A DNA stretch of 64,000 nt from Anaerococcus urinomassiliensis (GTDB lineage Bacteria > Bacillota > Clostridia > Tissierellales > Peptoniphilaceae). The notes below the pieces were generated by a model. It had not been told where the DNA came from. It was given only the letters and a program-made list of their open reading frames with translations, and searched no databases. The DNA lies in the NCBI RefSeq assembly GCF_900128425.1, contig NZ_LT635781.1, forward strand, positions 114,656-178,655. The letters run 5' to 3'. Numbering within the stretch: position 1 is the first letter of the stretch; the number at the start of each line of letters is the position of its first letter. Position numbers and translations under genes: made by a program. Shown here one piece after another: positions 34,319 through 50,873 of this stretch.

Positions 34319-34324
34319 ATCATA

Positions 34325-34398
34325 CACTAGGGGTGCCAAATGGCTGAGATTTTACCCTTAAACCAGATCAAGATAATGCTTGCGTTGGAAAGTGAACT
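34325..34398 (+). promoter_or_regulatory. TPP riboswitch (THI element)
   Basis: Conserved blocks are seen in order: ACTAGGGGTGCC, GGCTGAGA, ACCCTT, AACCAGATCAAGATAATGC and GCGTTGGAAAGT. It precedes the thiamine transporter gene thiT by about 75 bp. The region to 34473 can form GCTAG/CTAGC and AATTC/GAATT stems near AAGGAGG, which suggests that start-site access may be controlled, but the exact switch is not clear. Confidence 0.93.
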
Positions 34399-34473
34399 AA
34401 ACTCTTTTTAATTCTGGTTTAATTGCTAGGCTTATTGGCTAGCCTTTAGTAGGAATTATAAGGAGGTTTTTTT

Positions 34474-35143: not shown

Positions 35144-35190
35144 TGTCATCCTCGAGGGAGGTTCTTTTAAGAGCCGACTGAAGGATCTTT
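35144..35190 (+). repeat. REP-like element of the TGTCATCC...GGATCTTT type
   Basis: The ends TGTCATCCTC and GAAGGATCTTT, with GGTTCTT/AAGAGCC forming an inner hairpin, resemble the widespread TGTCATTCTGAGCG...GAAGAATCT repeat of Firmicutes. It stands at the left edge of the repeat island. The stretch from 35191 to 35284 is AT-rich with nothing recognised. Confidence 0.5.
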
Positions 35191-35284
35191 GTAAAGAAAC
35201 TGTAAATAAAAATGTTTATGTTGAACAAAAAAAGAATGAATGTCTTTTATTTATTTATAATTTAAGGTTATGACTTCGCCCTAA

Positions 35285-35445
35285 GGGGGAAAACCCAGGG
35301 GAGTTAATAAGCCTGTCCGGCTCGTTGAGGACTCTCACCAACCGGTTACGAAAACTCGCTTATGACGAAGCTCTTTCGTGCTACCGCACTATGTTTTCGG
35401 GGTAAAAGCCCAAAATCAATGGGCTTTTACCTCCCCTTAGACCCC
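35285..35445 (-). repeat. Structured element, full copy A (minus orientation)
   Basis: About 161 nt. Reading the minus strand: outer G-rich strands 35442-35445 and 35431-35437, a hairpin with an 11-bp stem and a 9-nt loop ATTGATTTT (35401-35431), one C, a 51-nt module closed by CGAAAAC/GTTTTCG (35349-35399), a 26-nt spacer, the 13-nt hairpin AGCCGGACAGGCT (35310-35322), then C-rich strands (35297-35303 and 35285-35289) able to pair with the first ones. The module contains GTGC-GGTA-GCAC and GCTT/AAGC hairpins. It aligns end to end with copy C. No coding potential was recognised. Confidence 0.8.
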
Positions 35446-35468
35446 AATTTCTGCTACCCCTCGAAACG

Positions 35469-35781
35469 GCCACTGCGTGGTGCTGGAACTTGTAAGAATT
35501 TGCTGTGCAAATTCTAGCGATTTGATAGGGTGAACTCTCATTATTAACTAAAAAAATTGGTGTTTTCTAAATCTTGAATTTCTAAAATCGCAAACTCGCT
35601 ACGCTCAAACAGTGCGATTTCTTAACGAAATTCTACGATTTGAAAACAGCACAATTTTCCAACCGCTAATCCAATGTTTGTTGCACTTGTAGGCTTAGTG
35701 GTGCAGTTAATATTAGGTAATCAGTCAAAACAAAAGAATTTGCGAAGCAAACTTCTTCTGCTCTGCGCACCACGCAGTGGC
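35469..35781. repeat. Core of the island: mirrored 15-mers and hairpins
   Basis: A perfect 15-bp inverted repeat (35469-35483 and 35767-35781, GCACCACGCAGTGGC on the right) is followed inward on both sides by a GAATTTGC-type hairpin (35496-35514 on the left, 35734-35757 on the right), the two being near-exact reverse complements. The left arm therefore mirrors the right arm, continuing outward into copies A and B. The middle (about 35515-35733) has no gene. Confidence 0.7.
35566..35640 (+). repeat. Central palindromic repeat of the island
   Basis: TCTAAATCTT, then AAATCGCA ... TGCGATTT (a hairpin around an ACTCGCTACGCTCAAACAG segment). A degenerate relative lies at 57501-57567, so this is a dispersed repeat family rather than part of a single element. 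Confidence 0.65.
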
Positions 35782-35788
35782 GGTGGGA

Positions 35789-35871
35789 GATAAATGACCG
35801 TTGATTTTGGTCATTTATCCCGAAAACATAGTGCGGTAGCACGAAAGAGCTTCGTCAGAAGCGAGTTTTCG
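35789..35871 (+). repeat. Structured element, partial copy B
   Basis: 83 nt: hairpin with stem GATAAATGACC/GGTCATTTATC and loop GTTGATTTT (35789-35819), one C, and a 51-nt module (35821-35871) that differs from module A at a single position. The 13-nt hairpin and C-rich closing strands are missing; copy C follows after a short G-rich stretch. Confidence 0.8.
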
Positions 35872-35885
35872 TAGTAGAAGGTTTA

Positions 35886-36045
35886 GGGGGATTTGGGGAG
35901 TTAAACAGCCGTTGATTTCGGCTGTTTAACCCGGAAACTCAGTGCGGTAGCGCGAAGGAGCTTTGAATAAAGCGAGTTTCCGTAGGAAAAAGGGGTCTGT
36001 CCTCTGTCAGCCGGACGGGCTAGCTACCCCTAATTCCTATCCCCC
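35886..36045 (+). repeat. Structured element, full copy C
   Basis: About 160 nt. Outer strands GGGGG (35886-35890) and GGGG (35895-35898) face CCCC (36027-36030) and CCCCC (36041-36045). Inside: hairpin GTTAAACAGCC/GGCTGTTTAAC with loop GTTGATTTC (35900-35930), one C, a 51-nt module closed by CGGAAAC/GTTTCCG (35932-35982), a 26-nt spacer containing GTCCTC as in copy A, and the 13-mer AGCCGGACGGGCT (36009-36021). From 36046 to 36150 only AT-rich sequence is seen. Confidence 0.8.
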
Positions 36046-36150
36046 GAGGTACAAGGGTACAATCCTAAATAACGAAAAGCCAAAAGATACGTATACATAA
36101 AAAATAAAATATTTAGTCCAAGATATTTTAAAAATATCTTCGATTTTCTA

Positions 36151-50659: not shown

Positions 50660-50704
50660 AATGTTAAGAACTTAATAAATTAGCGCTTATAAGTTTATGG
50701 GCGT

Positions 50705-50812
50705 GATTCGGGGTAAGGTGAAATTCCTAAACCGGCAGTTATAGTCTGCGAGCCTTTATGGTTGATTTGGTGCAATTCCAAAACCGACAGTATAGTCTGG
50801 ATGAGAGAAGTA
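50705..50812 (+). promoter_or_regulatory. FMN riboswitch (RFN element)
   Basis: Conserved blocks in order: TTCGGGGTAAGGTGAAATTCC, ACCGGCAGT, AGTCTGCGAGC, GATTTGGTGCAATTCC, AAACCGACAGT and AGTCTGGATGAGAGAAG. It precedes a terminator hairpin and ribU, which fits FMN-dependent termination. Confidence 0.96.
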
Positions 50813-50873
50813 TACTTTATAATACTTTATTATTTGTTTGAGTTTAAAGACTTAATCTAGTAATTTGGATATT

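Follow-up and report, generated by a model that had tools for sequence, protein, structure and literature searches.

The inverted repeats at positions 35,285 to 36,045 of the window, the whole 64,000-nt stretch of Anaerococcus urinomassiliensis DNA analyzed here, are composites of host repeats and smaller inserted modules, the main one of which, M1 (about 83 nt), is on balance best explained as a mobile but non-autonomous module of DNA. M1 has a conserved structure, is dispersed, has known empty sites, shows no target duplication, and occurs nested.

The locus had been described in a preliminary account as two full inverted copies, A and C, of a structured element of about 160 nt. On inspection of the sequence, the described parts of both copies are present where they had been placed, and the arms of copy A, on the minus strand, match the plan of copy C; the first hairpin, P0, had been given as 11 bp with a 9-nt loop, and in copy C we find 12 bp and a 7-nt loop. 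Copy A forms an ungapped inverted repeat of 111 nt with copy C (73% complementary) and one of 89 nt with a further copy, B (91% complementary). The predicted fold of copy C reaches −78.6 kcal/mol (z −5.9; none of 200 shuffles equally stable), and that of copy A with its flanks has a z of −2.6, with one of 200 shuffles equally stable. Only two mechanical open reading frames of at least 50 codons, of 51 and 58 aa, overlap the copies. The locus is intergenic, one neighbor being the gene behind a TPP riboswitch and the other a gene that we take to encode a GntR-type regulator. The window contains an FMN riboswitch at 50700-50816 and a TPP riboswitch at 34319-34407 (Rfam).

Copies lacking the inner modules show how the 160-nt unit was assembled. 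A side-by-side reading of matches in the same genome identified versions of the surrounding repeat, E, without M1 and M2 (L015-L019), and a version of the related repeat E' without either module is found in L150; L014 carries another related E' copy. Because such hosts exist, the 160 nt are not an evolutionary unit but the sum of a host repeat, M1, and M2, a hairpin (AGCCGGAC) of about 24 nt. In copy C, E has received both M1 and M2; that E also holds copy B, which is another M1; and copy A is M1 plus M2 inside E' on the opposite strand. The outer strands, M1, and M2 are gained and lost independently of one another. The insertion point of M1-C has GGGA on its left and TAGG on its right. Copy C gives 27 matches in its own genome at E ≤ 1, many of them partial, and the spacer region (query 164-518) matches several genome places, whole or in parts. 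Another palindromic repeat (GTCATCCTCGAGG..GATCCTTCGGTC) lies at 35145-35190 of the window and in the right flanks of several E copies, often adjoining E.

Table 1. Features of the locus, in window coordinates.
Feature	Position	Strand	Description
Host repeat E'	35262..35497	-	Contains copy A; G-rich and C-rich arms carrying the insertions M1-A and M2-A; boundaries approximate, placed by eye
M2-A	35310..35332	-	Hairpin GTCC..AGCCGGACAGGCT within the loop closed by the inner E' stem GGGGAG/CTCCCC; identified by comparison with empty E'
M1-A	35349..35431	-	83 nt, P0 hairpin and three-way junction; empty E' known
Spacer between E' and E	35500..35730	.	Repeated elsewhere in the genome
Host repeat E	35733..36063	+	Contains copies B and C; ends approximate, placed by eye
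M1-B	35789..35871	+	83 nt, E site 1; empty site known, net-exact
Copy C, G-rich strand	35886-35899	+	
M1-C	35900..35982	+	83 nt, E site 2; empty site GGGA/AAGG (slash, insertion point), net-exact
Copy C, P0 hairpin	35900-35930	+	12 bp, 7-nt loop
Copy C, three-way-junction module	from hairpin to 35982	+	
M2-C	35999..36022	+	Hairpin AGCCGGAC within the loop closed by the E stem AGGGG/CCCCT; absent in L015-L019
Copy C, AGCCGGACGGGCT	36009-36021	+	
Copy C, C-rich strands	within 36026-36046	+	

M1 is 83 nt long: P0, a hairpin of 12 bp, comes first, and P1, P2, and P3 then form a three-way junction. In an alignment of 29 copies, 97.4% of the cells are paired and 20 of the 28 pairs carry two-sided changes, against a mean of 8.8 in shuffled alignments; none of 500 shuffles equaled the alignment on four measures, and two did so on pair types. 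Pairing falls to 36-45% when the partner is shifted by one to three columns. A larger alignment, fitted to the model (124 model matches reduced to 102 distinct rows), gives 97.8% of cells paired and 26 of 28 pairs changed on both sides (0/500 shuffles). Some of the loci overlap, and with flanks included the 124 matches come down to 110 distinct ones. The many copies, covariation, and defined ends anticipated in the preliminary description therefore belong to the inner module (102 distinct copies; 14 hosts with filled and empty versions). A mini-form of M1, made of P0 and a short CGAT hairpin, occurs in L119 (808-856), L104 (682-730), and L118 (749-797), with empty hosts identified for L119 and L104.

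For 14 hosts both filled and empty versions are available; 13 were measured and the 14th, in L139, was read from the outputs, with counting by hand and with M1 taken to run, in the model's placement, from the first P0 base to the final P1 base. The insertion is net-exact in 11 hosts: E sites 1 and 2, the P2 tetraloop, the uvrB end, the guaA end, the M2 loop, two forms of the CATCTCGA palindrome, the L073 and L075 hosts, and the 5S 3' end in L139. It is off by one base in three: E' (the window copy), 5S loop C, and 5S helix IV. None of the 14 shows a target-site duplication. The nearest flank bases are replaced, often by A and T, and not duplicated: in 12 of the 14, T stands directly to the right of M1, and in several hosts it replaces an A of the empty version. 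The palindrome copies L119 and L110 (347-436) equal flank and empty site summed, with no alteration. The ends of M1 are nearly identical across the measured hosts, while left flanks vary with the host and have no constant motif, and right flanks vary as well (TAGG, TAAC, TGTC, TGAC, TTAG). Among the contexts listed, each host site carries M1 in a single orientation.

The hosts include the tetraloop of other M1 copies, 5S and tRNA fragments, palindromes, and the ends of guaA and uvrB. Among 110 contexts, 16 distinct ones have M1 nested within the P2 tetraloop of a second M1, and M1 lies in a hairpin loop at several hosts (P2, CATCTCGA, M2, 5S loop C, guaA). Its flanks pair more strongly than permuted ones (−4.59 versus −3.99 kcal/mol, fraction 0.031 of 2000 permutations) over 20 clusters, one of which is a truncated copy. 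In a direct test over 17 site definitions, the insertion points were not significantly unpaired in the empty hosts (mean percentile 0.59, z 1.2). With this result, and with the flank complementarity being weak, a strict preference for apical loops was rejected, and survival of composites with intact stems may be a sufficient cause of the loop placement.

Several copies sit in partial gene duplicates adjoining the intact gene. Downstream of an intact 5S gene, L140 (295-1123) has three partial copies of 5S rRNA in tandem, at intervals of about 219 bp, and all three hold an M1; in L082 (1450-1720, minus strand), intact uvrB precedes a diverged copy of its own 3' end, within which M1 lies; and L034 has M1 in tRNA-Met pieces. 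M1 is antisense to 5S in loop C (L140, L090, L032, and one L139 copy) and in helix IV (L092). Four L139 matches are in sense relative to the 5S 3' end, so the argument against an RNA target from a constant antisense orientation in 5S and tRNA hosts was dropped.

M1-like copies directly 3' of guaA were found at L157, L159, and L181, three of the 30 loci from the genus, and in another genus (L100), and L098 has a guaA-like end without an adjoining guaA gene; this guaA-type set leaves out L099 and L101. Being common to several genera, these copies could be old conserved 3' elements instead of mobile ones. In L093 (G030, near 990 kb), an M1-like copy lies about 31 kb from guaA, beside an open reading frame that is presumably relaxase-like; an integrative element may have entered there at the end of guaA.

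The preliminary description had called for a search for relatives beyond the locus, and these proved abundant within the genus: M1 is present in 26 of 31 Anaerococcus genomes, with the highest match counts in G004 (60) and G002 (42). Order-wide and class-wide searches used stricter filters, under which weak matches are lost; they returned M1 in 31 of 249 genomes and three of 92 genera of the order, and in three of 391 genomes sampled from the class, all three within the family and none outside it. An exact pattern of the repeat core matches four A. provencensis stretches. Plasmid and phage collections had no match to the E region or to a guaA-type M1 copy, and viral contigs none to two exact patterns. 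The element also lies outside known Rfam families, as had been claimed: scanning the whole window returned only the FMN and TPP riboswitches, located elsewhere, and the best hit at the locus was PrrB_RsmZ with 13.8 bits (E 1.3) against a gathering threshold of 44. The open-access texts retrieved, in the portions available, name no such family in Anaerococcus. On contig C10 of G000, 10 of the 11 M1 places among those listed fall at 1.21-1.58 Mb, a stretch picked post hoc. Clustering at the replication terminus was considered and rejected: G025 has nine of 15 matches at 0.85-0.97 Mb, and its skew, estimated from 20 sampled stretches, switches near 0.5 and 1.25 Mb.

Whether the recognized form is RNA or folded DNA had been left open in the preliminary description, and the composition of the pairs favors the DNA reading. 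Among 2804 M1 cells there are 26 G-U and 21 A-C pairs, so that G-U (0.9%) is not commoner than A-C; because it is both rare and similar to A-C in frequency, we favor folded DNA over structured RNA. In the tRNAs of the same loci, G-U makes up 49 of 647 pairs (7.6%), a control in which the ARAGORN pairing rules may conceal A-C pairs, and the TPP riboswitches of 30 loci have 16 G-U and one A-C among about 330 (G-U about 4.8%), one wobble pair supplying 14 of the 16 G-U cells. A functional structured RNA, such as an sRNA or a 3'-UTR or terminator element spread with host repeats and covarying for its RNA function, whether M1 or the composite, would agree with the strong two-sided covariation, the very stable fold of copy C, and the copies right after guaA, but the scarcity of G-U, the diverse contexts among the copies listed, and the lack of an Rfam match make it rather unlikely. 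Template switching during DNA replication is described as able to make and mend hairpin arms (PMC8794818), and therefore covariation alone is no proof of RNA here.

Among DNA-level alternatives, insertion by a Y1 (HUH) transposase, either of the IS200/IS605 type or REP-associated, with M1 as its single-stranded hairpin substrate, would account for the missing target duplication, the end hairpins, and the constant orientation at each host site among the contexts listed, and Y1_Tnp genes are common in the genus (21 of 31 genomes). As regards the RAYT gene that goes with REPs, open frames measuring 241-242 aa occur only in G002, G014, and G017. Yet M1 has no constant left motif, and Y1_Tnp does not track with it, being absent from nine of the 26 genomes with M1 and present in four of the five without. 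An insertion-sequence end, raised in the preliminary description as a competing identity, was looked for in two IS200 copies (L064 and L067), whose ends, read by eye, are unlike M1; an IS200 origin was accordingly rejected, and we regard the Y1 route as unlikely. Still more doubtful is an origin without dedicated transposition, in which breakage of hairpin loops, for instance through SbcCD-like cleavage, leads to capture of M1 fragments in repair, and stems are then perfected by template switching. The replaced flank bases and the position of M1 within partial duplications of 5S, uvrB, and tRNA genes are in keeping with it, whereas random capture would not be expected to leave ends that are near-constant over the measured hosts.

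Under the mobile-module reading, one strand of M1 would fold into the P0 hairpin and then the three-way junction, and an enzyme would copy it into new places, where it would be added net-exactly without target-site duplication, with T on the right in most hosts and often A on the left. Many surviving insertions would be located where other hairpin repeats, M1 included, form loops or are unpaired, and the resulting nested composites (E or E' with M1 and M2) would then spread as wholes. Many copies of M1 descend from few insertions on account of this joint spread, which weighs against the reading. We infer that the DNA hairpin, not RNA, is the recognized form and that movement proceeds via single-stranded DNA; stem pairing would be maintained by recognition, by template-switch repair of the arms, or by both. 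No enzyme was linked to M1 in these genomes. A search for longer gene-bearing relatives, biased by loci mostly retrieved using M1, came out negative: each of 106 5' halves had a 3' half within 75 nt.

We rate M1 among the small palindromic mobile repeats, and each group compared here differs from it in some respect. PATEs and other miniature derivatives of IS200/IS605 have hairpin ends and no target duplication. M1 shares both features, but it has no fixed target or left motif and no ends in common with an insertion sequence of the genome, as judged from the two copies read (L064, L067). Classic DDE MITEs do not fit, given the lack of duplication in 14 hosts and ends that, by eye, are not mutual inverted repeats. 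Rickettsia palindromic elements lie in frame within proteins. They are described in PMC3733652 as palindromic repeats inside genes, unlike the M1 at the uvrB end, which lies in a duplicate adjoining the intact gene. REPs are described there as small dispersed palindromes of 20-40 bp with a GTAG or CGTC tag, some dimers lying inside longer palindromes and some intragenic copies in repair genes (PMC3733652); REP/BIME and M1 are alike in being small, dispersed, and partly within longer palindromes, but M1, with 83 nt, a three-way junction, and no constant tag, departs from the REP pattern, and it nests in itself and has empty hosts. Pneumococcal BOX, compared here through its published description (PMC3049150), is likewise a modular folded composite, with optional inner boxB modules between boxA and boxC; boxB is described there as a module of BOX, whereas the hosts that M1 enters are many and unrelated. 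Insertion in REPs is known for IS1397, IS621, and further IS elements (PMC1525189), which resemble M1 in having palindromic repeats as targets, but these elements bear genes and M1 is gene-less. It is conceivable, though we hold it only tentatively, that a gene-less, enzyme-driven module of folded single-stranded DNA, inserting net-exactly and duplication-free in DNA-hairpin loops including its own, and hence recursively, represents a new class of mobile element in Anaerococcus. With its naturally occurring nested hairpins, present in filled and in empty form, the M1 system allows a DNA-level origin of near-perfect covariation to be tested against an RNA-level one. It is therefore relevant to whether covariation may be taken to prove a functional RNA, and also to the way in which small palindromic repeats without genes are mobilized.
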